Virus record (IMG/VR): IMGVR_UViG_3300024348_000043
Coordinates: 1-56,757 of that record
Length of the DNA stretch: 56,757 nucleotides
Origin: a virus
Strand: one strand, 5' to 3'
Both the position numbers and the translations under genes were made by a program. Below the pieces are notes generated by a model that saw only the letters and a program-made list of their open reading frames with translations, was not told the DNA's origin and did no database searches. This document shows, in pieces, positions 888 to 32,414 of the stretch (its first letter is position 1; each line of letters starts with the position of its first letter).

Positions 888-1922
888 ATGAAAGCATACT
901 GCAGTTTACCATTTGATAGAATGAAAATAGATTCCGATGGATCTTACCAATCTTGCTGTCATCAAACAACTTACTATGGCAACATTTTAACCGATAATAC
1001 AACGATAGAGGAGGCTTTTAAGGGGAAAACATTGGTTTCAGTAAAGAACTCCGTGATGAGCTCTAAAATGCATCCTGGTTGCAACAACACAAAGTGTCCG
1101 TTATACTTCACATTATTAGAAAGGGATTTTGATGTTACCCTGTCTAAGTACCCTAAACAGATAGAGCTTGCTCTGCCTTCATCATGGTGTAATATAGGTG
1201 GCTTAAACCCAACACCGGATACTGCCTGTATAATGTGTCCAAGATCGAGTGAAAGATATATCTCAAATTTTGTGAATATTCCTGACAATACAGATTTGCT
1301 CCTTGATATTATAAAACCTGCTATCCCGCACCTAGAAACATTTACCCTTTTAGGAATTGCAGAGCCTTTCTATAAGGGAAGATTGTTTGATGTGCTAGAT
1401 AGAATAGAATTTAAAAAATACAAGGACTCTATATTATTCTGGACTTTTTGCAACGGATCTTTATTTGGTGAAAAATATCAGGACATGTTCGTTGATGAAT
1501 ACACCAGTAAATCGTGTATAGGATTTTCCATCGATGCGGCAACACCAGAGACCTATATAAAGATAAGAAGACTTGATTACTACACAACTATACAGAAAAA
1601 TCTGGAAAGGTATTTTAACAAGGTGAATAATCTGGGGTATAAGAGGGATTGGTCGTTTACTGCGTATAATATAAATATGCTAAACCTGCACGAGATGGAA
1701 GATATGCTCAGATTTGGAAACAACATAGGGGCAAATAAAGTACAATATACACTAACATATATTAGTGATCCCGGTATGAAGATAGATAAAAATTTGCTAT
1801 GTAACGCTAAAAATTGGAATTTATTCTGGGAAAAACAACAGAGAATAGAGCAATTAGCTGCTGAATTAAATCAGGAAGTTGAATTTTACCTTCCTTTTCA
1901 TGGGGGTTATATAAACAAATAG
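888..1922 (+). CDS. radical SAM/SPASM-like enzyme
   Basis: 344 residues. The N-terminus (C5, C23, C24, with the pattern DSDGSYQSCC) resembles the auxiliary cluster region of SPASM/twitch radical SAM proteins. C101, C114 and C117 follow as the likely radical SAM cluster. The segment IGFSIDAATPETYIKIRR near residue 205 is a typical radical SAM barrel strand and loop. Two features are odd: the SPASM-like cysteines come before the barrel, and the cluster spacing is CX12CX2C instead of the usual CX3CX2C. Family members cleave S-adenosylmethionine to a 5'-deoxyadenosyl radical and modify peptides, sugars or cofactors. Genes on both sides are a glycosyltransferase and 2-oxoglutarate oxygenases. The substrate is unknown. 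Confidence 0.72.
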   Translation: MKAYCSLPFDRMKIDSDGSYQSCCHQTTYYGNILTDNTTIEEAFKGKTLVSVKNSVMSSKMHPGCNNTKCPLYFTLLERDFDVTLSKYPKQIELALPSSWCNIGGLNPTPDTACIMCPRSSERYISNFVNIPDNTDLLLDIIKPAIPHLETFTLLGIAEPFYKGRLFDVLDRIEFKKYKDSILFWTFCNGSLFGEKYQDMFVDEYTSKSCIGFSIDAATPETYIKIRRLDYYTTIQKNLERYFNKVNNLGYKRDWSFTAYNINMLNLHEMEDMLRFGNNIGANKVQYTLTYISDPGMKIDKNLLCNAKNWNLFWEKQQRIEQLAAELNQEVEFYLPFHGGYINK

Positions 1923-1924
1923 AC

Positions 1925-2632
1925 ATGATATTTAAAAAGCCATTAATACAAACGGATGACCCGTACGTTTTTCATCTAGCACCAATCCCGTTATACCAGA
2001 GAATTTATGATGATAAGATCTCCGATATAGCTTACGACCTGGGTAAAAAAATTCTGACGGATAAACAGAAATTGATGGGTCAGGAATTACCAACAGTGTA
2101 TGATTCCGAGCGTCAATCAAATTACGAGATAAATTACGAAAGACATGATGAATGGGTGGAGGAGCACGAATTTCCTCCGATAGGAAGTCGTTTTTGGAGT
2201 CCGCCTAATGACTTTTTAGAAACGGATGACGAAACGGTAAAAACAATAAAGAGAAGAATACTTAACGGATTTTACCATTTATTAAAATCTTTGGATATTC
2301 AAAAGGAGGGTGAAGCAGCCATAACTGAAAGCTGGCTTCAATATTACGATCCATATTCAGGTAGAGGTCATAATGCACATAATCACTGTCGTTGGAACCC
2401 CATGGAAGCTAAACCCGTAATGTTTTCCGGAGGTTACTATCTCTGCGACGGAGATCCTATTGCAGATCACCCATATAGCGGGGTTTTCTCTTTCCATATA
2501 AGGGGCATGAAATATTATATCCGACCTAAAAAAGGGATGCTTTTAATATGGCCATATGATATAATCCATTCGGTCGAGCCTTTCTATGGTAGCAAGGAAA
2601 GAGCAGTTATAAATTTTAATATACAAATATAA
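1925..2632 (+). CDS. Fe(II)/2-oxoglutarate-dependent oxygenase
   Basis: 235 residues with a double-stranded beta-helix signature in the C-terminal half. A histidine cluster (H149, H152, H154) lies ahead of the strand FSGGYYL. A second metal histidine, H215, follows the strand GMLLIWP, and R226 in ERAVINFNI is suited to bind 2-oxoglutarate. The pattern resembles the putative 2OG oxygenases found in T4-like cyanophages. It starts 2 bases after the radical SAM gene stops and ends 2 bases before a second oxygenase. It probably hydroxylates a protein or sugar substrate; which one cannot be told. Confidence 0.7.
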   Translation: MIFKKPLIQTDDPYVFHLAPIPLYQRIYDDKISDIAYDLGKKILTDKQKLMGQELPTVYDSERQSNYEINYERHDEWVEEHEFPPIGSRFWSPPNDFLETDDETVKTIKRRILNGFYHLLKSLDIQKEGEAAITESWLQYYDPYSGRGHNAHNHCRWNPMEAKPVMFSGGYYLCDGDPIADHPYSGVFSFHIRGMKYYIRPKKGMLLIWPYDIIHSVEPFYGSKERAVINFNIQI

Positions 2633-2634
2633 AT

Positions 2635-3222
2635 ATGAATTTCAATCAACCATATAACGATCCGCAGAATTATTATTGGTTTCTATCGTGTTTTACCAAG
2701 GATGAACTTGATAAGGTCTATAACGACGTGGCGGAGCTTCCTTTTGACCCCGCGACAATCGATAACGGAAATTCACAAGAGGAGCATAAACAAATAAGGA
2801 GCTCCTCCATAAAATGGATACCTAAAAACGATAAATGGAATTGGTTGTATGAAAAATTAATGGCACAAGCAACCGAAGCTAATAATGCACTATGGAATTT
2901 TGATTTAATATCAGCACCTGAGCTTATCCAATATACCGAATATTATGCAACGGAGGGTGGACATTATGATTGGCATCAGGACATAGGTGCTGGTAGATCA
3001 AGCCACCGTAAGGTCTCTATAACGGTTCAGTTATCAGGTCCTGATGAATATGAAGGGGGTGATCTTGAACTTTGGCAGGGCGCATCATCTATACAAAATG
3101 CACATCGAGGAGCCGGCGTTGTTTTTGTATTCCCAAGCTACATGATGCACAGGGTCACTAAGGTTACCCGAGGTGTTAGAAGAAGCTTCGTTTTATGGGT
3201 TGGCGGGTGCACTTATAAATAG
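2635..3222 (+). CDS. PKHD-type Fe(II)/2-oxoglutarate hydroxylase
   Basis: 195 residues with a complete set of prolyl-4-hydroxylase-like residues: H114 and D116 (HYDWHQD), H172 (MMHRV) and R182 or R183 (VRRSFVLWV). The stretch EGGDLELW near 141-147 is characteristic of PKHD hydroxylases. The fold is expected to bind Fe(II) and 2-oxoglutarate and hydroxylate an amino-acid side chain. It is directly downstream of a second, different 2OG oxygenase and of a radical SAM enzyme, so the cluster carries three oxidative or radical enzymes in a row. The substrate is not known. Confidence 0.82.
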   Translation: MNFNQPYNDPQNYYWFLSCFTKDELDKVYNDVAELPFDPATIDNGNSQEEHKQIRSSSIKWIPKNDKWNWLYEKLMAQATEANNALWNFDLISAPELIQYTEYYATEGGHYDWHQDIGAGRSSHRKVSITVQLSGPDEYEGGDLELWQGASSIQNAHRGAGVVFVFPSYMMHRVTKVTRGVRRSFVLWVGGCTYK

Positions 3223-3275: not shown

Positions 3276-3548
3276 ATGAGCGAACAAATTAAATTACCGG
3301 AAGATCTTCTATTGGAAATCCAAGCATTAAAGGATGAATTAACAGAGAATGTTATTAGAATTGGAAGATTGAATGTGCAAAAATCATTCTATGAGAAGGA
3401 CCTTAGAATGTTAAATCTGGAACTTGATTCACTTTACGGTCAAGCGGAGGTTATTTCTAAGAAGGAGGATGATCTTCAAGTAAAGGTTGTTGGTCAATAT
3501 GGTAACGGAAAGTTAGATTTCGAAAGCGGCATTTTCACAAAGGAATAA
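3276..3548 (+). CDS. small coiled-coil protein of unknown function
   Basis: 90 residues. Residues 8-70 form a probable coiled coil with heptad-spaced Leu/Ile (LLLEIQALKDEL, then LRMLNLELDSLYGQ). The C-terminal 20 residues are Gly- and acid-rich. It sits between the hydroxylase and the GT4-like gene, 9 nt before the latter. A 53-base leader without a clear promoter precedes it. No family was recognised. Confidence 0.7.
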   Translation: MSEQIKLPEDLLLEIQALKDELTENVIRIGRLNVQKSFYEKDLRMLNLELDSLYGQAEVISKKEDDLQVKVVGQYGNGKLDFESGIFTKE

Positions 3549-3557
3549 TTTCACATA

Positions 3558-4535
3558 ATGGTGTCGGAATACAATCAACGGATTCCTAGAATCTTATACA
3601 TCTCCCCACATCTTTCTACTGGTGGTCTCCCTCAATATCTTTGGAAGAAAATAGAATCTTTCAATGATGTTGCGGAGGTTTACTGTGTGGAATATAGCTA
3701 TTTGGGCGATGCTTATGTTGTCCAAAGAAATAGAATATCTAATTTACTTGGAGAGAGATTCATTCCGATATTTAACGATGCCAACAGATTACTTGAAATC
3801 ATATCTGACATAAATCCAGATATCGTGCATTTTGAAGAATTCTGTGAAAGTTTTGTTGATGATTCGGTTTTATCCAAGATTTTCTCGGACGATAGAAAAT
3901 ATCTAATCTGTGAAACCTGTCATAGTTCTGTCACATCTATTCAGAGCAAAATCTATCGTCCCGACAGATTTGTTATGGTTTCTAAATGGATCGACCAGAA
4001 ATTTAGTAGTCTCGGAGTACCTTCCGAGATATTGGAATATCCGATAGAAGATTTAATAGCGGATAAAACTGAGACTATGAGGTCGCTTGGTATGGATCCC
4101 AATTACAAGCATATCGTAAATATCGGACTTTTTACCCCTGGCAAAAATCAGGGTGAAATTTTTGAGTATGCCAGGGAAACACTAAAGAGAGAATTACCGA
4201 TTAAGTACCATTTCGTCGGAAACACCGCTGATAATTTTAAGGATTACTGGGGTCCTTTATTGGAGAACAAACCAGACAATTGTTTTATCTGGGGAGAAAG
4301 AAACGATGTTGATTCTTTTTATCAGGCTGCGGATCTTTTTCTATTCACTTCTAACTTCGAATTAAATCCACTCTCGATAAAGGAAGCATTATCGTGGAAA
4401 ATACCTTCGGTTTTTAAGAGATTAGATACTTATCTGGACACATATGATGATGTGAATAACGTGTTCTATATTACTAATAATCGGGACACCAATCTTTCTT
4501 TAATACTAAATATACTAAATCCAGAATGGAAATAA
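3558..4535 (+). CDS. GT4-like glycosyltransferase
   Basis: 325 residues with GT-B (glycosyltransferase group 1) features. The N-terminal donor loop ISPHLSTGGLPQYL lies at residues 15-28. The C-terminal domain begins with NIGLFTPGKNQGE near residue 190. It carries the E-x7-E-like segment ELNPLSIKEALSWKIPSV, which in this family binds the nucleotide sugar. The last 10 nt overlap the start of the heptosyltransferase gene, indicating translational coupling and probably a shared glycan pathway. Donor and acceptor are unknown. Confidence 0.8.
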   Translation: MVSEYNQRIPRILYISPHLSTGGLPQYLWKKIESFNDVAEVYCVEYSYLGDAYVVQRNRISNLLGERFIPIFNDANRLLEIISDINPDIVHFEEFCESFVDDSVLSKIFSDDRKYLICETCHSSVTSIQSKIYRPDRFVMVSKWIDQKFSSLGVPSEILEYPIEDLIADKTETMRSLGMDPNYKHIVNIGLFTPGKNQGEIFEYARETLKRELPIKYHFVGNTADNFKDYWGPLLENKPDNCFIWGERNDVDSFYQAADLFLFTSNFELNPLSIKEALSWKIPSVFKRLDTYLDTYDDVNNVFYITNNRDTNLSLILNILNPEWK

Positions 4536-5731
4536 GCAAAAATTCTATATCGGTTTATTCTGGAATAAACAAAGCTGGTTCAATGTATATCGAATCAAAT
4601 GTTGAACCTAAGGTTCATATGTGGTTCGATTATTATCCCAAGATATCCGTGTCCGGTAAAAATATTGACGGAAGGTCGAATAGATTTACAACTATTATAA
4701 GAGACGGATCGGATATTATCTACACGGCGGAAATTCACACTGGGATGTTTTCTAATGCTTTTAAAAGAGGAGCATTTGATTGTATAATGGAAGCCTATGA
4801 TGAGAATGGAATTTTAGTCGATCGATTCTCTATGTTGGAGTATTTTAAGTCTGGTAAGGTTTGTGTTTCTATTGACAGTGCCTCCTTGGGTGATAATATA
4901 GCTTGGGCCCCTTATATAGAGGAGTTTAGAAAAAAATACGAAATTCAAAATCTAATAGTTACCACTTTTTATAATGATCTTTTTGAAGGTCAATACGAGA
5001 ATATCACATTCAGACCCCCGGGGTACAGGGAGGATGGTATGTCTGTCATTATTGGTGTTGGATGGTATCAGGAAGACGATCGTAACATGCATAGAACCGA
5101 TCCAAGAACAATACCTCTGCAAAGAGTAAGTAGTGACATTTTGGCTGTTGATTACGCTGGTGAAATCAGACCACTGATTAATAAAAAAATAAACCAAAGA
5201 CCTACTAATAAGAAATACGTTTGTATTGCAACCGAATCCACTGCAGGTGCTAAGTATTGGCACTATCCTGGTGGGTGGCAAAGACTGGTAGACCTGTTAA
5301 AGATGGTTGGGTACGAGGTGGTTCTTATACAGAAGGAGCCAAATTCACTATCAGGAGTTATCGATAGAAGCGGAGATATTCCAATTGAGAATAGAGTGAG
5401 TGATCTACTTCAATGTGAGTTTTTCATCGGATTAAGCTCCGGATTATCCTGGCTCTCGTGGGCACTAGGAGTACCAACGGTTGTTATTTCTGGATTTACA
5501 GATCCTTTTCTTGAATTCTCTGACAGGTGTCTTCGTATTATAAATCGCGATGTTTGCAACGGATGTTTCACCAAAACAGAGTATAAATTCGATAGAGGAG
5601 ATTGGTGGTGGTGTCCGGTTCACAAGGGAACTGATAGATATTTTGAATGCACGAGGACGATAAAGCCAGAAGACGTCTTTATTTCTATATTAGATTGGAT
5701 CGAATCTGATTATACAAAGGGATCTAACTAA
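4526..5731 (+). CDS. TibC/Aah-type protein O-heptosyltransferase
   Basis: 401 residues. The C-terminal two thirds match the bacterial autotransporter heptosyltransferase family, which transfers heptose from ADP-heptose to Ser hydroxyls of proteins. Diagnostic pieces are STAGAKYWHYPGGW (238-251), FFIGLSSGLSWLSWALG (299-315), VVISGFTDPFLEF (319-331) and WCPVHKGTDRYFECT (362-376). Four cysteines (C344, C347, C363, C375) occupy the region that binds iron in TibC. The first 110 residues form a separate beta-rich domain. The family is best known from enterobacterial autotransporter loci, so a copy in a phage structural-gene region is unexpected. A heptose kinase is encoded at 31437-32414. The target may be a virion protein, but this is inference. 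Confidence 0.87.
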   Translation: MEISKNSISVYSGINKAGSMYIESNVEPKVHMWFDYYPKISVSGKNIDGRSNRFTTIIRDGSDIIYTAEIHTGMFSNAFKRGAFDCIMEAYDENGILVDRFSMLEYFKSGKVCVSIDSASLGDNIAWAPYIEEFRKKYEIQNLIVTTFYNDLFEGQYENITFRPPGYREDGMSVIIGVGWYQEDDRNMHRTDPRTIPLQRVSSDILAVDYAGEIRPLINKKINQRPTNKKYVCIATESTAGAKYWHYPGGWQRLVDLLKMVGYEVVLIQKEPNSLSGVIDRSGDIPIENRVSDLLQCEFFIGLSSGLSWLSWALGVPTVVISGFTDPFLEFSDRCLRIINRDVCNGCFTKTEYKFDRGDWWWCPVHKGTDRYFECTRTIKPEDVFISILDWIESDYTKGSN

Positions 5732-5773: not shown

Positions 5774-8263
5774 ATGAATTTTTACCCAGAAGATAAATTT
5801 CCGAAAAAAGGAACACCCGTTACTGACGGTAATGGAGAACAATATGACCTATCGGAGCAGAGGTATAATTATCACGATGGTTTACAAAACACATCAAAGA
5901 TAAAAGAATCATCTGTCGACAACATATATTCTACACCAGGAGCCGCTTCTGCAAGGGCTCAGCAAATAGGGTGTGGAGGATATCATGAGGTTATTATAAA
6001 TGGAAACACATATTATAAACCTTGCGAAACCTCTTCGTATTATGATACGAGAATTGAGCAACTAGACAGTGCTCTAAACTTCACTTATATTGGAAGTTAC
6101 CGAGTACTTACCTGGGATAAACCCTTCGAATATGTTACTAAATTTAACGGGTGGATTATAGATGCTTCCAATAGTAGCAATTCAGGATCAGCTATAGATG
6201 CCAATGATATTTCCATAGATTTTAGATATAGTATTGACGGAAAAACATGGTCTCTTTGGACAAATGTAGGAACGGCACTTGGTGGACTTACCAATGAATT
6301 CTCGGATCTTTTTGAAATCACTTTAGATCCTAATAATAAATTCTACCCTGAATTTAGATTCACCTCAGTCTTGGTGAATGATGATGGTACCATAGTTTAT
6401 AATACCAATGAGCCTATAGATCCGTCGATAGTTATTGTTAGCTTTGAATTGGATCTTGATTATGCTCCTGCACCGGAAGTTGTAATCTATAAGCCCGCAG
6501 CAATATGTTCGAATGAAATATCAAATAGACCTGTTGTTTTTTCTGATTGTAAATTCACGTTCAATCCTTATGCTGTAAACAGGGCATTAAACCTATATCA
6601 GGATCTAAGTCTGATGGTTAATAATGTATTTGGATTGGAAGCTAATTATTACTCAGTGCAGCCACAAGCTAGAGGTAAGGATGTTATTTTGAGAGAGTAT
6701 ACAATATTTAATGTTGTCGATGAAAAATGTGTTAAATTATTGGTTCCTCAGAATCAATTTCCAGATAACAAGATTAACTTTGATCCGTTCGGACTTCAAT
6801 TTGAAGAACCGTTTGAGGTACAGATTGATAAAAGATATTTTGAGGGAATATTTGGGAAAGGATCGCAACCTAGAAAGAGAGACATCATATATTTTCCTAT
6901 AACTAATAGGATCTATGAAATAAACTCAATGTATTTATTTAGAGATTTTATGAATGCTCCTGTCTACTTTAAGATAGAGCTTAAGAAATACAATCCTAAG
7001 AGTAATACTTATTTCCAAGATCCAGCATACAAGGAGGAACTTGATGGAATATCATTAACCACTGAGGATCTATTTGGCGATGATGTGAGAGCTGAAGAAC
7101 TTAAGAGTGCTAAGCCACAGCAATATGCTACCACAATAACCCAGATGTCACAAGATCCTATCAGATCTTATGTTTATAAGGATCTTTCCATTATAGGATA
7201 TGATCTTAATAATAACTGGACTATAGTTTTAAATCACTATTATGATCTCTATGAAGCTTTCGCTGATGACTCCGAATTTGGATATGATCCTAATAGATAC
7301 AGAAATGCCATAAGATATAAAATATTACCTGAACTCGATTCTATCGGTGAACTTGCATATACATGTTGGTTTACTCTTAAGGATTTCTATGACAATCAGC
7401 AAATGTTAAGAAGACCTTATCCTGTATTAGGTTTAACTCTAGAATCTTCTGACTCTAATTATCTTTACTTTAACAGCTATCCTAAGAGACATAGATTATC
7501 TAGATGGGAATCCTACGCTTCTAATCCTGAGGGATATGTTGCTATACAGGGGGACAAACTTCACTCTGGCGGGTATGAGGTCGTTCAAATTATAGATGAA
7601 TATAGATTCACAGTAAAAAATAATTCCACAATATTTTCCGACGGAACTATCATATGGAAAATGCAAAAAGCACAAAGCCGAAACCTAATAAGCGGACTAT
7701 ATCTAACTGAGAATGATGATATAAAGGGAATTAGGATTGATCTGATTCACTCGGGTGTTACCGATGAAACATCAAATCCTTTCTTAGGACAGGGAAGTTT
7801 AGTGATAAGGTTAAATGACACCGTTATAAATTCACCTTTACAATTCACTCCAGAATATGGAAGCTGGTATGGTGTTGCCGTAAACGTTTCTAATGTTTAT
7901 AAGCAAATCGCTGCTAACATCTGGGAAATGTCATACGATCCAACAAATCCTGCTGAACAATCAAGTAAGCTTAATAAAGTCCACGAGGAAGTTAGAATGT
8001 TCACTACACCGATAACTTTCAAGGCTCCGTCCGATAAAGTTACCGATACCTCCAGTCCTTATTATGGAACTGATAACAATTCATATAAGGTATTTACTGG
8101 ACCAATTTATTTAAGCAATGTGAGATTATTTAAAAATATGATAGATATAGATACACAATCTACAGTACTGAACCAAAACATCGTGCGTGACGCGCAGCTC
8201 GCACACATCATTGATAACGCCAAACCTCTATTGAACATGCCTAAGTTTGCAAGAAATAGATAA
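5774..8263 (+). CDS. large virion structural protein, C-terminal lectin-like domain
   Basis: 829 residues, no signal peptide. The middle part is rich in Tyr, Asp and Asn. The last 200 residues have the rhythm of a concanavalin/LamG-like beta sandwich (WYGVAVNVSN, then GPIYLSNVRLFKNM). A late-type promoter precedes it, and the terminase genes follow within 4 nt, where T4-type genomes usually carry neck, tail or fibre genes. A tail-tip or fibre-associated protein is plausible, but I cannot match it to a specific T4 gene product. Confidence 0.6.
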   Translation: MNFYPEDKFPKKGTPVTDGNGEQYDLSEQRYNYHDGLQNTSKIKESSVDNIYSTPGAASARAQQIGCGGYHEVIINGNTYYKPCETSSYYDTRIEQLDSALNFTYIGSYRVLTWDKPFEYVTKFNGWIIDASNSSNSGSAIDANDISIDFRYSIDGKTWSLWTNVGTALGGLTNEFSDLFEITLDPNNKFYPEFRFTSVLVNDDGTIVYNTNEPIDPSIVIVSFELDLDYAPAPEVVIYKPAAICSNEISNRPVVFSDCKFTFNPYAVNRALNLYQDLSLMVNNVFGLEANYYSVQPQARGKDVILREYTIFNVVDEKCVKLLVPQNQFPDNKINFDPFGLQFEEPFEVQIDKRYFEGIFGKGSQPRKRDIIYFPITNRIYEINSMYLFRDFMNAPVYFKIELKKYNPKSNTYFQDPAYKEELDGISLTTEDLFGDDVRAEELKSAKPQQYATTITQMSQDPIRSYVYKDLSIIGYDLNNNWTIVLNHYYDLYEAFADDSEFGYDPNRYRNAIRYKILPELDSIGELAYTCWFTLKDFYDNQQMLRRPYPVLGLTLESSDSNYLYFNSYPKRHRLSRWESYASNPEGYVAIQGDKLHSGGYEVVQIIDEYRFTVKNNSTIFSDGTIIWKMQKAQSRNLISGLYLTENDDIKGIRIDLIHSGVTDETSNPFLGQGSLVIRLNDTVINSPLQFTPEYGSWYGVAVNVSNVYKQIAANIWEMSYDPTNPAEQSSKLNKVHEEVRMFTTPITFKAPSDKVTDTSSPYYGTDNNSYKVFTGPIYLSNVRLFKNMIDIDTQSTVLNQNIVRDAQLAHIIDNAKPLLNMPKFARNR

Positions 8264-9050: not shown

Positions 9051-10874
9051 ATGGAGGATTTATTAGAAAATGGAGTCCAGCAGGAAACATCATATTGGAC
9101 AACCGCCAGAATAGATGAGTTATTAAGGAGAGTTGACGAGGAGGGGCTAGATTATAAAAGTGTGGAAAATCCATTCCATGATAATAACCCTGAGCTCAAA
9201 AGGGCCAATGTTCTCTGGGAGTATACCAAAGACGAGATACTTGAAATGAAAAAATGCGCGGAAGACGTGACATATTTTGCCAAGTATTGTAAGGTAATGA
9301 CCGATACCGGACTGGATTATATCAGACTGAGGGATTATCAGGATTCGGTTCTTAGAGAATATCAGGGTAGCAGATTTAATATCTTTCTTGCACCGAGACA
9401 GGTTGGTAAATCTATTACTTCTTCCATAATTCTTGTTTGGTACCTACTTTTTAATCATGATAAAAATGCGATGATCTTGGCCAACGTCGGTGACACTGCG
9501 GAGGAATTGATGGACAAGATTAAATCTATTATTAAAGGTCTTCCATTCTTTTTAAAGCCCGGTATAATGGTAAACAACGTTATGTCAATGCGTTTTGATA
9601 ACGGATGTAGAGTTTTAGCAAAGACCACAACTAAAACTTCCGGTATCGGTTTTACCATTCATTTCCTATACATGGATGAGTTTGCTCATATTAATCCCAA
9701 TTTTATTGAGGCTTTCTTTAGATCAACATACCCAACGGTTTCATCGTCTAAGGTGTCTCGAATTATAATCACATCGACACCTAACGGAATGAATAAATTC
9801 TATGAAATTTATCAAGGTGCTCTCGATGGTGAAAACAGTTTTAATCCAATCAGAGTGGATTGGTGGCAGGTTCCAGGTAGAGATGAAGCTTGGAAACAGA
9901 AGGAGATAGGTAACTTAGGAAGTGAGGAGCTATTCAATCAGGAATACGGTAACCAATTCTTAAGCTCATCAAGTTTGCTTTTAGGTTCTAATGAGCTTAA
10001 AAAAATAAGGAAGAACGAGGTCGAATATTCTTGGAGAGAGATTAGCTGTCTTCACGATAACAGTATCAATTACGAGAATCTAATCTGGCATCCTAAGTTT
10101 GATCTTGATAAATGTGACAGCCCAGGTAAGAAATTCGTGCTATCAATAGATTTAAGTGCTGGCGGAAAGGGGGATTTTACGGTCATTAATATATTTAAAG
10201 TTACCCCTCTACCCAAGACGGTGATTGATAGGATAGAGGAATTTGAGGATGAGGCTGATTTCTTTGGCCTAGTGCAGGTGGGTGTATTTAGAGATAACGA
10301 GATTAAGCTTGAGGAATTTACCAAGCTTGTCCAACTTCTCTGCAGCGACCTCTTTACTGTTGACAGAGTTAAGATCGCATTGGAGATGAACTTTAAGGGT
10401 GAAATATTATATGATAAACTCACCGCCAGAGATGATTTTTACGATGAAATGTTTTTATTTACTAAACACAGCGAAAGTGCTAGAGTACTAAAACCCGGTA
10501 TAAAATACAATGAGAAGAACAAGATGAAATATTGCGAACTGCTCAGAAGTCTGGTTAAGAGTGATAAAATCTTAGTGAATGAGAAGAAGTGGACTATACC
10601 CGAACTTTTCACTTTCGGACTAAATTCAAGAGGAACCTACTCGAGCCAGAGTGGACATGATGATGTTGCCATGACGCTGGTTAATCTGCCTGGACTTTTT
10701 GACGGATATGATTTTAATCAGATAGTTGGAGATGTCTTTGACGAGCTTACAGAAAATCCATATAAGGACATCATAGTTAGAAAAATTGAGGGCGGACAAA
10801 TATTAGACGAGAATCAGAGAGGACCTAGTACCAAGGACGGAAGAAGCTACGGGGATTTCAGTAAACTCATGTAA
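9051..10874 (+). CDS. 17: terminase large subunit (gp17)
   Basis: 607 residues, about the length of T4 gp17 (610). The ATPase domain shows Walker A APRQVGKS at 114-121, Walker B FLYMDE at 205-210 with the catalytic Glu, and the coupling motif TSTPNG at 241-246. The C-terminal RNase H-like nuclease domain begins with the strand VLSIDLSAGG near residue 365 and contains further acidic positions (ALEMNF, and GHDDVAMTL near the end). It powers DNA packaging through the portal and cuts the concatemer. All key motifs are present. Confidence 0.95.
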   Translation: MEDLLENGVQQETSYWTTARIDELLRRVDEEGLDYKSVENPFHDNNPELKRANVLWEYTKDEILEMKKCAEDVTYFAKYCKVMTDTGLDYIRLRDYQDSVLREYQGSRFNIFLAPRQVGKSITSSIILVWYLLFNHDKNAMILANVGDTAEELMDKIKSIIKGLPFFLKPGIMVNNVMSMRFDNGCRVLAKTTTKTSGIGFTIHFLYMDEFAHINPNFIEAFFRSTYPTVSSSKVSRIIITSTPNGMNKFYEIYQGALDGENSFNPIRVDWWQVPGRDEAWKQKEIGNLGSEELFNQEYGNQFLSSSSLLLGSNELKKIRKNEVEYSWREISCLHDNSINYENLIWHPKFDLDKCDSPGKKFVLSIDLSAGGKGDFTVINIFKVTPLPKTVIDRIEEFEDEADFFGLVQVGVFRDNEIKLEEFTKLVQLLCSDLFTVDRVKIALEMNFKGEILYDKLTARDDFYDEMFLFTKHSESARVLKPGIKYNEKNKMKYCELLRSLVKSDKILVNEKKWTIPELFTFGLNSRGTYSSQSGHDDVAMTLVNLPGLFDGYDFNQIVGDVFDELTENPYKDIIVRKIEGGQILDENQRGPSTKDGRSYGDFSKLM

Positions 10875-10921
10875 TAATGGTTATTTAAATATCCTTTATC
10901 AATAATTCCTGTTTCTTTTTT

Positions 10922-10930
10922 GATATATAG
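10922..10930 (+). promoter_or_regulatory. late promoter motif GATATATAG
   Basis: GATATATAG lies 28 nt before the tail-sheath ATG, in an 84-base AT-rich gap after the terminase gene. It is a perfect match to the recurring late motif. Confidence 0.65.
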
Positions 10931-10958
10931 TCTAGAAGCAAAAATATCTTGAAAAATA

Positions 10959-13900
10959 ATGGCAAATAAGGTAAAAATAGACTACTCACAGTTTAGAGCA
11001 TCTGGAGTTTATACATTAGAATTTGACGCGTCTCAGAACGTCATTCTAACGTCTCAAACTATTAGATTGGTTGTAGGTTTCTCTAATAAGGGACCTTTCA
11101 ACACCCCAGTCTATATTCCAGACGTAACAACTCTTATATCTATTTTTGGTGACGTAGACAGATCACTAGAAAATAAAGGATCTTTTTTCCAAAGATCCAT
11201 CCTAACATGTTTAAATACCGGACCAGTCTTTGCATTGAATCTATTAAGATTGAATGACGATGTAGATTCTGCAGATCCGGACGAAGCGACTTACCAGGCT
11301 TATTCTGTTGACACCGAAGAATCTAACGGTGTTGTCACAAGCAGACTATACTCATCTTACTACAACAAAGAAAGATTCTGGTTTGCTGATCCTAATTATT
11401 TCCTTGCAACTCTAAGTGTTGCTGACCAAGGAAAACTTTTCAGCTTAACCAACTTGGGTAAAACCCCCATGAGTATAATCGTTAGAAAATCTACCGATTC
11501 TTCTAAGCCTCTTAAGGGTTATGACATTTTCGCAATCGATTGGTACGGAGCAAATAACGTTCCGACGTTCATGCACCCTTATGATTATATTTCAGATTAT
11601 TTCGTGGATGTTATTGCCATCTACGGTAACTGGACAGATTACCAGGCGCTTTCGATTGATCCAAAATGGAGCACGTATTTCACTAACAACGGATTCATCA
11701 AGAGCAGAATAGATGCTTTCCTTGCTGAGCCTGATATTTCAATAGTAACAACCGTAACTGGATGTATTATACCTGACTTCGTTGATCTTAACGGAATTAA
11801 TCAGTACATACAAACATTGGTTAACAACGGAACACCTTCTACAGGTTTATTCTGTGCTATTGACGAACAAGCATTCGATGCTATTTGCGACAATTCATCT
11901 AGAATAGATCTAGTAGGAAATCACCTAATCGACGAATTAAGTGGAGATAGGGATTTAGCTACACCTAGAATTAACTTCTTAAGTTATGATCAGGTATTAG
12001 TTGCTGATTACCTATACAGCCAAAATGTAATTGGAGTTACTGGGGCTACTGGTTTCAACAGTGCTACTGGTGCTACTGTTTACACAACTGGTGCTAAAGT
12101 AGGTACGCTATTTACTTTAACAGGAGCTACAGGCTCAACTGCAGGAGTGGTTTACCAATCATTTAACACATATGATTCTAATGCATACGAAGGAGGATTA
12201 CACTATCTTCAAACATCAGGAACATACGGTGTGACCGGAGGTTATATGGCAAATGCTACCGATGTAACAGAACTTAAGAGTTTCTTAAGTGTTAGCTCAT
12301 CGAATGATCAGAAATTCATTCTAGGTGTGGTAACTGGTTACACTGGAGGTTTAACCGGTGGTTTAATCAATCAATTCTCGGAAGCTAACCTAATTAAGCT
12401 TAAGGTAACTGGAACTAAGGACGTTTCGGGAGCTCTTAGAATATTCTTTACCCACCCATTAGATACATCTTTCTACAGATCTCAAGGTATAACGGTTAAG
12501 CCTACTTACAACTTAACTTCTTATAATACTGGTGCTTCGGGAAGTAACCAACCTTTCTATACGAATGCTTATCAGTTTGGTAACTCGGATTATACAGATA
12601 TTGAAAGTGTAGCAACACCTGATGGTGTTACTGGACCTGGTGCTCCTCTCGGAGTTTCTAATACTATTGTAGCTTACAATGCTTCTGATCTGTATCAAGA
12701 TAATAAATATGCTGAAGTAACAGACGGAGATTTAGCATGGACAAACTCAGCAGGAACTCAGCTTAAATACTTAGGATTTGAAGAAACTGTTGATAGAGAC
12801 CAATTCAATCTAGTATACACAAGAGCATTTAGCAACGTTGATAGAGACACTGCAACAATTACTAACGTACCTGGATTTGGTACGACATACGCTTCTGATA
12901 ACATTGGTAATCCTGTGAGTGCACAAAATTTTGACATAGTTTCTCAGGAAGGTTCAATCAACCAATTCGTAGATTGTACAAGAATAGATGTTACCACATT
13001 TAACGTAACTTTAGATGTTAGTGGTAATGTACCTTTCTCGGTTGGAGATTTGGTTGTATCAACTGACCTTGATATCTGCGATCCTGCAACAGGGAATAGA
13101 CAAAACAGATTAGCTAAGATCACTTCAGTTTCTCGTACAACTACATCAGGCGTATATAGAGTGGTAGCTGCGAGACCTGTTTATTACTATTCAGTAACTA
13201 ATGGAGTTAGGGTTCAAAAATTCTTATCTATAGCTCAATTCACTAGATCTTTCGATTTCTCTTACCTTTCAGGATTCATAATGACTGATTGGCACAGACC
13301 TAACGGAAGTGATGCTAGAATAACTGAGATTTTGGATGTTATGTATGACACCAATATAGCTAAAACATTAGCTTCTAAGGACGTCATCTCATTCAGATAC
13401 ATCGTAGATACTTTCTCTGGACAAATTCTACCTAATTCTAAATACCAACTTAGTAAGCTTGCTAAATTAAGACAACAAGCACTTGCTATTATTAATGCTC
13501 CTTCAATGGCTCAGTTTAGAGCTAGCACGGATCCTAGATTTACTGATGCTCCAACAGCAACTAATCCTTATCCTAAATTGAACACTGCTTACATCGCAGA
13601 CGGGGGTAACTTATCACTTAATCCTTCATACACATTCAGTCTACCAACTGAAGACGATGGATCTAAATTCTGCGGATTCTACTCACCTTATATTACGGTT
13701 AGAGAATCAAACAGAAACGTTGAAGTACCACCAGCAGCTTATGTTTCTAATAATTTCCTTAGAAAATTTGCTAACGGAGAACCTTACGCAATTATAGCAG
13801 GTCAAAAAAGAGGAGTAATAAGCGGATCTAGCGTGGTAGGGGTTGAATATGACTTTACTGACGAGGATAGAGGAAATCTTGAACCGTTCGGAATTAACCC

Positions 13901-23888: not shown

Positions 23889-26432
23889 ATGGACTTTATA
23901 AACCAAGTTAAAAAACTAAAAGAACTAACAAAATCACCAGAAGTAAAATCTTTGTGTGAGAGCTTCCTTAACGGTGAATCCGTTTCTAAGGATGAATTGA
24001 TAGCTTCTATCAACGAACATAATAATTCGGGGACAACCCAGAACGACATTCCAAATGTCATTAACCACATAGAAGCAATAAGAAAAGAGGAGAACGAAGT
24101 CTCTAAAAGATCTGCCGCTGCCTTAATGGAATCATGGGGTGGACTAGGATCAAGAACTTCTTCTAATTCTGGATCTTATGCTGATAGAAAAGAGCAAGAA
24201 GAGAAAAAATCGGAGGATCTTTTCGAAAGCATTTCTAAATTGGACACAGCTGATCCGGTAACTGTTTCTTTCATAGAGGCACAAGGGGTTAAGAATCTTG
24301 GTATTATGGAGGCAATCTCTAAAATAAAAGAATCTTCTATCTACTCATATCCTAAAGCTAAAATCGTATGTGAGCAATACCAGAATCTTTTGTCTGTTAA
24401 AAAATTACCTGAATTCACAGTTATCCATAATTTTATTGCAGAACTAGAGTCTTTCAGCTGGGATAATTCAGTTACACCTATAGCTGATGATCTTAAAGCT
24501 AAAGCTAAAAAATATTCAAGAGAAATTGAAGTTGCTAGAGTTTTAGAGGCAATTAAAACTAGTGGTAGTTCTTCTTTCTACTCTGAACTTTCTGAAACAT
24601 TAAATACTTGGTTAGTTTCCGAAAGTAAGTCAAACGGTCTTTTGGTTAAAAATATTTCTAAATATGGTTTCAACCCAGTAGTTAGAAATCTAATTAACTT
24701 CTTAAATGTTAACGAAAATAAAGACACTAGAAAACTAGAAATTCCAGTAAATGCACAAGGCGAATCTAGCGTATCTAAAGTATACTCTCCTGTTTTATTC
24801 GAAAATGGAAGAACATTCTTCTATATCGGAGGATCAATATTCGAAGCAACGGAGAAAGAATTGGTTAAATTATCGGAAAAACAGATTTTAAATCTTCCTT
24901 CTGATTACAGCAAATTAATCGAATCTTCTAAAAAATCTCACGTTTCTATTAACGAGAACGGAATCTCAATCAGATTCGGTAAGAAAATGGTTAAATTGGT
25001 AGAAGAAAATGAAAACGTAGAGGTTTATTTAGGTAAAGATAAACTTAAATTTGGTGACGTTGCAGGTTTAGCTAAAATCTTGGGTCTAGAATCTGGATCT
25101 TATTTCGGAGTTAATGAATCAGAGGCTGTTCATGATACGATGGTATTATACACAAACTACTCTAATATCGTTGAATTAGATTTTGCTAAGAGCATAACTT
25201 CTAATATTTACGAAGGTGTTTCTGCTAATCTTTTCAAATGGAATGATCAGATCTATGTTCAGAAGATTAATCAAGCTATGAACGAGAATTCTATTTATAA
25301 AGTAAATGGAACTCAGGCAGTTTCTATGGTTAAGTCATATTTAAGATACGATATCTCTGAGGGTTTAACTGACTTCTTAGAGGGTGAGAATAAGATTAAA
25401 TCTGTTATGATAAATGACAGAACTAAGGTTCTTGAGAATATTTCAAGAGTAGAAGGAGAGATTTCTAAGATCAATGCTTTAACAGAATCTAATAATCTTT
25501 ATAGAGAATCTAAACAAATTTTAACTGCTAAATCAATTCTTGAAAAAGAATTAAGTGTATTAAAAGAAAAATGGAATCAGATCAACTCAGAACTTTCTAG
25601 AATAGAGGAAGAAATTAAAATTTCAGATGAGCTTAACGTTTCAGAAGATGAAAAATTTAACATTGGTGATTTCATCAAAGTTAAAGAATCAGGAGAAACG
25701 GGAAAGATAATTTCAGTTGATGGTACATCGGGAAGATATACAATTCTTTTGGACAACGGAAAAACTTCTGATTTCTTAGTAAATGAGATTTCTGATCTTG
25801 AGGAAGCTTTAAGTCAAGCAGCTGAGAAAAACTCTGAAGAAGCTGAAGAAGAGGGAGAAGAGGAAGTTAAAGAATCCAACAATCTAAACAAATCTACTTT
25901 AAGCTTAGAGGAACAAAAGAACTTATTGAAAACTTTTGCTGACAATCACGGATTTTCTAAAGCCCCAAGAGGTGAAGGAGATAAGGACATAGCAATGGAA
26001 TTTGACTCTCTTCATGGGTATAACATCACAATGAATGAAGCTAAAGCTAAGGAAGAAAAAGCTAATTTAGCTAAAGCTCCAGGTGATAACAAGAAAGAAA
26101 AGGGTAAAGTTGAAGGTGAGGATCTTTTAGGAGATGCACCAGAAACTAAAGATAAAACTGATTTTGAGGGTGAAGATGTTGATGGCGAAAAATATGAAAT
26201 CGGATACAACCTTAGAGAAGGTAAAGCAGAAAACGAAGGTGAATTAGCTGAAGCACCAGATGCTGAAGCAAAAAGCAACGCCGATACTAAACTATCTGGA
26301 GACATCGAAAAGAAGATGAATCTAGCAGAGGCACCTGGTAAAGAGGGAGACATTGATTTCGAAGGTGATTCTGATGATACTGGTTATAATTTGGACGAAG
26401 CAGAGGAATCCGAGGAAGTAAAAAAAAACTAA
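23889..26432 (+). CDS. large probable virion protein with C-terminal LAEAP repeats
   Basis: 847 residues, Ser/Lys/Glu-rich and largely helical. A coiled-coil segment lies near 515-570. An SH3/KOW-like beta module at about 590-635 contains GDFIKVKESGETGKI and YTILLDNGKTSDF. The C-terminal 150 residues are acidic and carry repeated L(A/S)(K/E)AP units (ANLAKAPGD, GELAEAPDA, MNLAEAPGK). The zero frame stops at 26430-26432 directly after nine A. The same repeat type continues in the -1 frame to 26593. A late promoter precedes the gene. A structural or core role is inferred; no homologue was recognised. Confidence 0.65.
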   Translation: MDFINQVKKLKELTKSPEVKSLCESFLNGESVSKDELIASINEHNNSGTTQNDIPNVINHIEAIRKEENEVSKRSAAALMESWGGLGSRTSSNSGSYADRKEQEEKKSEDLFESISKLDTADPVTVSFIEAQGVKNLGIMEAISKIKESSIYSYPKAKIVCEQYQNLLSVKKLPEFTVIHNFIAELESFSWDNSVTPIADDLKAKAKKYSREIEVARVLEAIKTSGSSSFYSELSETLNTWLVSESKSNGLLVKNISKYGFNPVVRNLINFLNVNENKDTRKLEIPVNAQGESSVSKVYSPVLFENGRTFFYIGGSIFEATEKELVKLSEKQILNLPSDYSKLIESSKKSHVSINENGISIRFGKKMVKLVEENENVEVYLGKDKLKFGDVAGLAKILGLESGSYFGVNESEAVHDTMVLYTNYSNIVELDFAKSITSNIYEGVSANLFKWNDQIYVQKINQAMNENSIYKVNGTQAVSMVKSYLRYDISEGLTDFLEGENKIKSVMINDRTKVLENISRVEGEISKINALTESNNLYRESKQILTAKSILEKELSVLKEKWNQINSELSRIEEEIKISDELNVSEDEKFNIGDFIKVKESGETGKIISVDGTSGRYTILLDNGKTSDFLVNEISDLEEALSQAAEKNSEEAEEEGEEEVKESNNLNKSTLSLEEQKNLLKTFADNHGFSKAPRGEGDKDIAMEFDSLHGYNITMNEAKAKEEKANLAKAPGDNKKEKGKVEGEDLLGDAPETKDKTDFEGEDVDGEKYEIGYNLREGKAENEGELAEAPDAEAKSNADTKLSGDIEKKMNLAEAPGKEGDIDFEGDSDDTGYNLDEAEESEEVKKN

Positions 26433-28177: not shown

Positions 28178-29788
28178 ATGGCTGGTTTTGTAGACAATAA
28201 TAATCCATCTCAGACCCCTGTCGTACAGAGGATAAGGGATTCTGTGAGAAAGCTTAGTACTTTCGGAATGAAGTATGATGACATGGTTATTAGAAATTCC
28301 CAGGCAGTGGGAGTAACCGAGGCAGCTTTTTTAAATAAGAATAAATCTAATGTCGAGGACGAGAGTATGCTATGGACTCTTGCCAAACAGGATATCTCAT
28401 CCAGACAGTTTATTGGATACTTTGATAAGGATTATAAAGGTAAGCGTGATTTCTTAAGAAAGTTTTCACTTAATCCGGAAATAGAATGGGTACTTGATAC
28501 AGTGTGCGATGAGGCGATTTCTTACGATCCATCCAATTTTTTTGCATATCCAGATTTTATAGACCTTAGCGATATAAATGAGAAACTCAAGGATGATCTA
28601 TACGAGACTTATAAAAGACTGTATGATACGTGGGGATTCTCTGATGACATAACTGCTTGGCAGTATTTCAGACAGTTTATTATCGATGGATTTTTGGCAT
28701 TTGAAATCATATACGATGACAAGGGTCAAAATATTATAGGATTTAAAGAACTTGATGCTGTTACCCTTGTACCTAGTGTCGAAAAACAAATAGACGGATC
28801 TTTTGTTAGTACGTGGACACAATACCCCCAAGATCCTAAGAGAAAAAGAGTTCTTTATGATCCACAGATTATATACATTTCTTATGCCAAGGGTAATGCT
28901 ATTTCTAGGATAAGTTACATTGAGAGATTAATCAGACCTTATAACATTCTTAGAATAATGGAGTACACCAGAGTTATCTGGTCGGTAATGAATGCTTCAT
29001 TTAAACTAAAGATGACGGTTCCTATTGGTTCAAAATCTCCTCAAAAAGGTATGCAGACTCTAGGTGAGTTAATGAGCATCTATAAAGAGGACATTGAGCT
29101 TAATGATGAAAGTGGTGAATTAACTATCGACGGTAGACCAAAAATCCAGTTCTATAAGAATTACCTAATGCCTTCTGGCGTAAATGGTACACCAACCATA
29201 GAACCTTTAAACACTGAGGGACCAAATTTAAATGATCCGCAGCCTCTAGCATATTTCTTTGATAAATTTATACTGGAATCTAAGGTACCTCCTTCCAGAT
29301 TTCATAATCCTGACGGTGGTAGTACCTCACCATATTCTAATGGTGCTGAGGGATTGGATAAGGAAGAGATTAGATTTGCTAAGTTCGTATCGAGACTTAG
29401 ATCAACATTCCAGGAGATTATGGTTAAACCACTTTGGATACAAATGGTTAAAAAATACCCTAAACTCGAGGAAGATTTCCTATTCAAGAGTCAATTGGGT
29501 CTTGATTATTTTTCTGATAATCCATTCAAGCTGAATCAGGAAATGGATATGATGAACAAGAAAAAGGAAGCCATCGCAGCAATGGGTGGATTGGTAGGAG
29601 ATGAAGATAAACCATATTTCTCCAATGCTTTCCTTATCGAAACATTCCTGGGTATGTCCAAACAGGATATAGATGCAAACAAGGAAGCAATGGAGAGAAA
29701 AGAGAAGGAGAAGAAAAAAGCCGAAGAAAAAGGCGGTGAGGGAGAGAAAAAAGAGGGTGAAGAGGAAGCACCAGCAGTAACACTATAA
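28178..29788 (+). CDS. 20: portal protein (gp20), copy A
   Basis: 536 residues (T4 gp20: 524). Portal features: the N-terminal LNPEIEWVLDTVCDEAI, the central AWQYFRQFIIDGFLAFEIIYD, the conserved IIYISYAKGNAISRISYIERL, and the clip region SKVPPSRF near residue 370. The C-terminal 40 residues are Lys/Glu-rich and end in EEEAPAVTL. The protein forms the dodecameric DNA channel at one capsid vertex and docks the terminase. A second full-length portal gene follows after 4 nt. Confidence 0.92.
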   Translation: MAGFVDNNNPSQTPVVQRIRDSVRKLSTFGMKYDDMVIRNSQAVGVTEAAFLNKNKSNVEDESMLWTLAKQDISSRQFIGYFDKDYKGKRDFLRKFSLNPEIEWVLDTVCDEAISYDPSNFFAYPDFIDLSDINEKLKDDLYETYKRLYDTWGFSDDITAWQYFRQFIIDGFLAFEIIYDDKGQNIIGFKELDAVTLVPSVEKQIDGSFVSTWTQYPQDPKRKRVLYDPQIIYISYAKGNAISRISYIERLIRPYNILRIMEYTRVIWSVMNASFKLKMTVPIGSKSPQKGMQTLGELMSIYKEDIELNDESGELTIDGRPKIQFYKNYLMPSGVNGTPTIEPLNTEGPNLNDPQPLAYFFDKFILESKVPPSRFHNPDGGSTSPYSNGAEGLDKEEIRFAKFVSRLRSTFQEIMVKPLWIQMVKKYPKLEEDFLFKSQLGLDYFSDNPFKLNQEMDMMNKKKEAIAAMGGLVGDEDKPYFSNAFLIETFLGMSKQDIDANKEAMERKEKEKKKAEEKGGEGEKKEGEEEAPAVTL

Positions 29789-31436: not shown

Positions 31437-32414
31437 ATGGAATTAGATCTACTTAAAAAATTTTCTCGCACAAAAATATTAATCATCGGGGATGTTATGC
31501 TAGACCATTATGTAATGGGTTCAGTAACAAGAATTTCACCAGAAGCACCGGTTCCCGTTCTTTTGAAAGAATCTGAACACTATTATCTGGGAGGTGCAGG
31601 AAATGTTTTTTCGAATATACATTCACTGGGTGGTAATGGAGACATCCTAACTGTTACTGGGAATGATCTAAATGGGGAGCTGGTAAAAAATATGGTAAAG
31701 GAGAAATCATCTCTAAGCATGTTAATTAAAACAGACAAGCGAAGAACCACCATTAAGTCCAGATACCTTGGTAATTCTCATCAGCTCCTTAGAGTCGATG
31801 ATGAAGACTGCGATGATATTGACAATGAAACTGAGAATTATTTTATAGATCTACTGGAATCTGCTGTTGAGTTTTATGAGTGCGTTATTATCGAGGATTA
31901 TAATAAAGGGTTATTGACCCCCAGAATTATAAGAAGAATAATAGAACTTTGTAATTCTAAAAGCAAGCCTGTTATTGTCGATCCCAAAGTAAAGAATATA
32001 GATTTTTATAAGGGATGCACCGTACTTAAACCAAACTTCTCTGAATTTTGCACTATTGCTGGTAAGAAGATTAGTGTATCTGATCACGATCAAATAACGG
32101 TGGAAGCTAGAAAAATTCTAGATCAAATGGAAATAAAGGGTATCCTAGTAACCCTTTCCGATAAAGGTATGCTATATGTTACCAAATATGAATCATATTA
32201 CAGTCCGGGGTATCTAATAAACGTTTCTGATGTGTCGGGTGCTGGTGATACTGTAACCGCAATGTTCTCCCTTTGCATATCATCCGGTGTCGATATTAAA
32301 AAAACTCTGAAACTGTGTAATATAGCCGGATCTATTGCCTGTTCTTTAGTCGGAGCTGTTTCAGTCAATCTTACGGAGATCTTGGAGAGCAGATATTTCA
32401 AATCTAACCCCTAG
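31437..32414 (+). CDS. hldA: D-glycero-D-manno-heptose-7-phosphate kinase (HldE/RfaE N-domain)
   Basis: 325 residues, the size of the kinase half of HldE without the adenylyltransferase domain. The N-terminus IIGDVMLDHYVMGSVTRISPEAPVPVL is the RfaE1 signature. GGAGNV (PfkB motif 1) and DVSGAGDTVTA (motif 2, catalytic Asp) are intact. The family phosphorylates heptose 7-phosphate at C1, an early step toward ADP-heptose. A protein O-heptosyltransferase using ADP-heptose is encoded at 4526-5731. The gene lies between portal and DNA ligase genes, preceding a T-rich promoter at 32444. Confidence 0.88.
   Translation: MELDLLKKFSRTKILIIGDVMLDHYVMGSVTRISPEAPVPVLLKESEHYYLGGAGNVFSNIHSLGGNGDILTVTGNDLNGELVKNMVKEKSSLSMLIKTDKRRTTIKSRYLGNSHQLLRVDDEDCDDIDNETENYFIDLLESAVEFYECVIIEDYNKGLLTPRIIRRIIELCNSKSKPVIVDPKVKNIDFYKGCTVLKPNFSEFCTIAGKKISVSDHDQITVEARKILDQMEIKGILVTLSDKGMLYVTKYESYYSPGYLINVSDVSGAGDTVTAMFSLCISSGVDIKKTLKLCNIAGSIACSLVGAVSVNLTEILESRYFKSNP

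Follow-up and report, generated by a model that had tools for sequence, protein, structure and literature searches.

A phage lineage of thumbless Aah/TibC-family protein O-heptosyltransferases and its genomic association with collagen-like fibers

Analysis of a 56,757-base stretch of viral DNA, an IMG/VR virus record referred to here as the window, showed that the gene at 4526..5731 on the plus strand (401 aa; ATG start, no internal stop) encodes a member of the Aah/TibC family; its identification as a protein O-heptosyltransferase, here called HepT, is well supported, and transfer of heptose to Ser/Thr is the predicted activity. Family, fold, active-site residues, pathway genes, the missing thumb, and a genomic association with repeat fibers were directly established, and from them we infer the activity, donor, oligomeric state, acceptor, and virion benefit of the HepT system. 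With moderate confidence, we propose that HepT is a thumbless, phage-specific O-heptosyltransferase that, with a partial donor supply of its own, decorates collagen-like virion fibers. In this model, the Aah/TibC-family HepT of a large T4-like phage would transfer heptose from ADP-heptose to Ser/Thr hydroxyls of a protein, and the group 1 glycosyltransferase encoded next to it might lengthen the attached sugar; GmhA, found in relatives, and an HldA-type kinase would carry sedoheptulose-7-phosphate to heptose-1,7-bisphosphate, leaving the remaining steps to ADP-heptose to the host. The acceptor would be the phage's own collagen-like fiber, a Ser/Thr-rich Gly-X-Y protein encoded just upstream in relatives, and the thumbless HepT may act as a dimer on this extended, repetitive substrate.

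The window is a fragment of a T4-like phage that carries terminase, sheath, neck, and portal-type genes and two tube genes. The features described here lie on the plus strand. The left contig end (1..118) leaves the fiber gene itself outside the window. Between fiber and HepT is a modification region with genes for a radical SAM/SPASM-like protein (888..1922), a 2OG-Fe(II) oxygenase with a possible hydroxylase role (1925..2632), and a second 2OG-Fe(II) oxygenase (2635..3222); these three (888-3222), upstream of the HepT cassette, might serve fiber hydroxylation or another modification. The cassette consists of the group 1 glycosyltransferase gene (3558..4535), which overlaps the start of HepT by 10 bases, and HepT, and its site is bordered on the left by the gene for a 90-aa protein (p90; 3276..3548) and on the right by the gene for a T4-type neck/head-closure protein (5774..8263). 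Two portal-type genes stand in tandem (28178-29788 and 29793-31415); both match phrog_213, and the pair is kept in the relatives examined. Between the second of them and DNA ligase lies the gene for a 325-aa heptose-7-phosphate kinase of the HldA/RfaE-domain-I type (31437..32414). No PHROG match was obtained for the 847-aa protein at 23889-26432, and the T4 late-promoter motif, taken as a mark of late expression, did not occur above chance.

In the group to which the window belongs, the usual order is p90, group 1 glycosyltransferase, HepT, neck, a 260-aa protein, terminase, sheath, and two tube proteins. Both cassette genes are missing from G082, G083, G084, G086, G088, G089, and G052, and the p90 gene there directly adjoins the neck gene; G082 carries a HepT fusion elsewhere in its record while the usual site is empty. 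The group 1 glycosyltransferase is a conserved partner of HepT and is fused to it in LR756501 and in phage Mel-JY01, and in several phages HepT forms part of a fusion with other glycosyltransferase or methyltransferase domains; the glycosyltransferase in the window possibly extends the heptose. An inverted six-gene glycosyltransferase cassette that includes a HepT fusion was seen between the p90 and neck genes of G087 (L414).

The sequence-only reading had named the protein at 4526 a TibC/Aah-type O-heptosyltransferase, and family score, PDB match, structure prediction, and phylogeny agree with that assignment. HepT scored 240 bits (E = 3.8e-71) against the NCBIfam model TIGR04414 (hepto_Aah_TibC; curated cutoff, 200), and TibC was its only match in PDB by sequence (E = 1.9e-48). 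An AlphaFold model built from an 82-sequence alignment (mean pLDDT, 93.3) retrieved TibC (4rap) first in Foldseek, in a full-length match (E = 6e-32; TM, 0.80/0.84; about 380 columns) with about 30% identity in the structural alignment. The Pfam model TibC_1st did not match HepT, although the fold, including the N-terminal barrel region, matches TibC. With characterized TibC mutants as the reference for catalytic base, donor-binding, and iron-finger residues (PMC4358343), the catalytic base D110 of TibC is kept as D123 in HepT, and the donor-site residues T226, K230, R286, and W305 are kept as T239, K243, R290, and W309. The four-cysteine iron site, to which the sequence-only reading had pointed, is complete: TibC C339/342/358/370 correspond to C344, C347, C363, and C375, and iron binding is predicted. 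The D, K, and W residues and all four cysteines occur in every one of 49 viral homologs. In its above-cutoff score, fold, catalytic base, donor residues, and iron finger, HepT thus resembles TibC and AAH (BAHT, TIGR04414; 4rap, 4rb4).

Family scores, tree, and structure ruled out the alternative that HepT is a lipopolysaccharide (LPS) heptosyltransferase. Against TIGR02193 (LPS heptosyltransferase I; cutoff, 185.3), HepT reached 17.5 bits. WaaC and WaaF (GT9) share the GT-B superfamily and ADP-heptose chemistry with HepT, but in Foldseek they followed far behind TibC (WaaF TM, 0.49/0.58), and TM values by query length were about 0.36-0.50 to GT9 structures versus 0.80 to TibC; WaaC and WaaF are not known to have an iron finger. 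The tree placed the HepT of the window within a group of 31 sequences, all of them viral (SH-aLRT, 99), and TibC in a separate group of 31 bacterial sequences (SH-aLRT, 99), with WaaC and WaaF as a distant outgroup; this was a quick tree whose two samples were both selected for resemblance to the phage alignment, and its deep branching should not be over-read.

HepT also differs from TibC and AAH, in belonging to this separate viral clade, in lacking the thumb, and in having no autotransporter or target-repeat partner; it is found instead near collagen-like fiber genes and is often fused to other glycosyltransferases. The stretch where the thumb hairpin would lie (residues 262-292) has 31 aa in HepT, as in the rest of its clade, versus 39-40 in autotransporter-type bacterial enzymes. 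In TibC, the beta-hairpin thumb is needed for the dodecamer and bears Phe-265 and Val-266, whose substitution yields dimers unable to modify TibA (PMC4358343). Since the thumb is absent, HepT probably does not form a TibC-like dodecamer, the twelve-subunit ring. Autotransporter strand-loop-strand target repeats (TIGR04415) were not found above the cutoff in 33 phage records; there were weak partial matches, of which two fell within tail proteins encoded by relatives. The description of HepT as an autotransporter-type enzyme thus holds for family, fold, and residues but not for the thumb and the target-repeat partner. Several of the bacterial loci whose enzyme retains the full thumb have autotransporter-like repeat proteins (by a rough count of Gly-Gly spacing), and no Gly-X-Y tracts were found near loci of this kind. 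Two contigs placed in bacterial or archaeal bins (L110 and L145), which may be viral, have shortened thumbs and adjoin Gly-X-Y tracts.

These features bear on the alternative that HepT and the kinase change the surface of the host, acting on LPS/O-chain or on host autotransporters and serving, for example, to exclude superinfecting phages; we regard this explanation as unlikely. The kinase and GmhA do belong to ADP-heptose synthesis, which is shared with LPS, and host-surface modification is how phage rfaE and glycosyltransferase genes are usually read, as published for pelagimyophages (PMC7029224); against this, HepT is separated from LPS heptosyltransferases by score, structure, and tree and lacks the thumb that TibC needs for autotransporter modification, and a role at the host surface would leave both the link to repeat fibers and the position within a structural cluster unexplained. 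The rfaE/gmhA genes of cyanophages and pelagimyophages are alike in being ADP-heptose pathway genes carried by phages and have been read in the literature as LPS genes, but the cyanophage kinases are distant matches to that of the window (about 26-31% identity, <90 bits), and those cyanophage records yielded no HepT.

The proposal that HepT modifies a collagen-like fiber draws on the surroundings of HepT in other phages. A co-directional open reading frame (ORF) with at least 8 Gly-X-Y triplets, and up to 611, was present at 28 of 43 viral HepT loci, counted on the HepT strand only and with one listed tract downstream at two loci; the tracts are mostly Ser/Thr-rich, of the form (Gly-Ser/Thr-Ser)n, and usually lie 4-9 kb upstream of HepT. 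The Peptidase_S74-type family occurred in 20/44 loci, Pfam Collagen and Peptidase_S74 domains were detected in several, and several tracts lie within S74-type fiber genes. In G002 (locus L003), the closest long relative of the window, with a 94% identical HepT, the DNA beyond the left end of the window holds the final part of a collagen-like fiber gene, with Gly-X-Y repeats at L003:3-65 and Peptidase_S74 at L003:255-614, and the contig starts and ends inside Ser/Thr-rich Gly-X-Y repeats. Within the phage group of the window, Ser/Thr-bearing tracts were found near the site in 21/23 HepT-positive but 2/6 HepT-site-empty members (P = 0.008; counts compiled by hand, relatedness uncorrected). G083 and G088, small relatives with an empty HepT site, still have the repeats; their close relative G082 is the one that has HepT elsewhere. 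The collagen-like fiber of the window phage itself is predicted from synteny with these relatives, and a fiber as acceptor, a well-supported association, would follow from the genomic link.

In many contigs of the group, the start or the end falls within Gly-Ser/Thr repeats (L003, L021-L059, L894), which suggests that assemblies break there and that fiber genes were probably missed or truncated. In the 735-kb phage LR756501, there are several very long Gly-Ser/Thr fibers, and a shorter tract lies <7 kb from HepT on the opposite strand. The relative G003 encodes large tail proteins (L211:6169-8343 and 9473-12205), one with a collagen-like N-terminal part; a Hint/intein-like C-terminal domain was recognized in them by eye, and Pfam gave no match for the second. 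A Gly-X-Y protein bearing glycans has a parallel in BclA of bacterial spores (PMC8968730), which differs in coming from another type of organism; here, the protein is a phage fiber and its glycosylation is a prediction.

The association was also approached from the repeats. IMG/VR was scanned for DNA matching twelve Gly-Ser/Thr-Ser/Thr-like triplets in a row, HepT playing no part in the choice, and contigs matching two arbitrary 14-base patterns served as controls. Among the matches listed, HepT scored above the cutoff in 16/30 repeat-bearing and 0/20 control contigs (Fisher P = 3e-5), leaving 14/30 repeat-bearing contigs, possibly fragments, without HepT. The repeat contigs were longer than the controls. 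When the comparison was limited to contigs of 40-115 kb, the counts among the matches listed were 11/23 and 0/19 (P = 3e-4); a test that took account purely of total length gave P = 0.008 among the matches listed. For fetched loci, again among the matches listed, HepT was present in 8 of 120 repeat loci and absent from all 240 control loci, which were similar in size (P = 1e-4). These statistics describe samples in which relatedness among contigs is uncorrected, and part of the link between repeats and HepT may be an effect of genome size or lineage, large phages being gene-rich.

Thr/Ser-rich inserts in the sheath and capsid proteins had earlier been considered as possible acceptors. The sheath does contain a Thr/Gly-rich stretch (residues about 361-427), but sheath length and the position and composition of the stretch are the same in relatives that lack the cassette at its site; with nothing linking the insert to HepT, it was rejected as a poor acceptor candidate. 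That HepT glycosylates some other virion protein (sheath, neck, tube, or capsid) appears to us rather improbable. HepT does lie within a structural cluster, with neck, terminase, sheath, and tube genes as its neighbors, and virion glycosylation is an established phenomenon, with mycobacteriophage glycosyltransferases reported to act on capsid and tail proteins (Freeman 2023, as cited in PMC12619734). Nevertheless, sheath, neck, and tube proteins are equal in length and similar in Ser/Thr content whether or not the cassette is present, and phages outside the cluster have HepT next to repeat fibers but lack these structural neighbors.

For the fiber model, a source of ADP-heptose, the likely donor of HepT, has to be considered. 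The kinase at 31437-32414, earlier read as an RfaE1-type heptose kinase, keeps that identity: TIGR02198 (rfaE_dom_I) is its best family match, at 319.7 bits just below the 345-bit cutoff, its best PDB match is the D-beta-D-heptose 7-phosphate kinase 4e84 (E = 2.6e-43), and it has the RISPEAPVPV and GAGDT motifs of HldA/RfaE domain I; it differs in standing alone, with no adjacent adenylyltransferase. The kinase is present in 6/6 close relatives >10 kb (the window counted) and missing at the portal-ligase site in several relatives. A kinase match (E <= 0.001) was found in 22/50 HepT records, 18 of them strong and four weak, the latter to short divergent kinases; conversely, HepT was above the cutoff in 11/33 contigs chosen by kinase homology, near-duplicates among them. 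Strict co-inheritance was rejected, as the association is partial: HepT occurs without the kinase in a sublineage (G008, G010, G011, G013, G014, and G016) and in G087, and the reverse is seen in G052, where the kinase is present and the HepT site is empty. Co-occurrence counts were 17 with both, 7 with HepT only, 1 with the kinase only, and 5 with neither (Fisher P = 0.026; compiled by hand, with shared ancestry and the kinase-based picking of some contigs uncorrected). Short (about 250-265 aa), divergent, cyanophage-like kinase homologs were noted in G030, G031, G039, G047, G091, and G092, in the last at the same portal-ligase site.

GmhA (TIGR00441; cutoff, 209.45) was detected at 184-188 bits in G002, G003, and G007, the three close relatives with the most complete records, the window ending before its expected position, and at 251.5 bits in the HepT-bearing 636-kb phage LR756504; LR756501 has the kinase. 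In the phage records searched, GmhB (HAD-type, proxy model TIGR01656) was not found and no HldD was above the cutoff, while adenylyltransferase candidates scored far below the cutoff and about equally as TagD-like. Among these, the small nucleotidyltransferases of L199 (G003, about 181018) and L196 (G043, about 39673) had similar scores as heptose-1-P adenylyltransferase and glycerol-3-P cytidylyltransferase. A full phage ADP-heptose pathway was therefore rejected, and the host would have to complete ADP-heptose; the suggestion that the phage boosts its donor is supported as far as the kinase, GmhA in relatives, and the recurrence of enzyme and kinase elsewhere, but not as a complete pathway. 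At the position governing stereoselectivity, HepT has Ser-304, like AAH (Ser-294), where TibC has Pro-300. AAH accepts both ADP-heptose epimers, and Ser-304 predicts that HepT could use either epimer, so that HldD would not be needed. The absence of kinase and GmhA from some HepT phages and the occurrence of Gly in place of Ser or Pro at this position in most viral homologs might indicate another nucleotide sugar, with the heptose genes serving a different purpose, but this is very improbable given that the ADP-heptose-contacting residues of TibC are conserved in HepT and that separate phage groups repeatedly combine HepT with heptose-pathway genes.

At least 558 uncultured viral contigs contain relatives of HepT, and no PHROG family matched HepT. 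A broader version of the fiber model, in which a widespread and hitherto unrecognized phage class heptosylates long collagen-like fibers through a thumbless TibC lineage and partly phage-supplied ADP-heptose precursors, is put forward more tentatively. If true, it would give a function to the protein family of these contigs and a reason other than LPS for phage heptose genes, and protein O-heptosylation would extend from bacterial adhesins to virion fibers by way of a simpler, thumbless enzyme; sugar-coated fibers could alter adsorption, stability, or recognition. In agreement with the earlier remark that no description of phage virion heptosylation was known, our literature search found no paper on phage O-heptosylation or on a phage-borne Aah/TibC enzyme, only general remarks on glycosyltransferases or LPS. 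An Aah/TibC domain in a phage is already present in databases, as a single phage protein in UniProt (A0A6J5SVC1) is automatically named "Glycosyltransferase Aah/TibC." The moraphages, a described lineage of jumbo phages that have a core set of four glycosyltransferases and are predicted to infect Bacteroidota (PMC12619734), may be related to the phage group of the window.

The Microcystis phage Mel-JY01 is the sole named isolate among the phage matches, and its GT1-methyltransferase-HepT fusion lies downstream of a plus-strand collagen-like ORF. Since this cultured phage carries both the enzyme and a repeat fiber, fiber heptosylation is directly testable. Two annotated minus-strand coding sequences in its record (PP395634.1; L016:1-3049) cover the uninterrupted plus-strand collagen-like ORF, and the annotated strand is probably wrong there.
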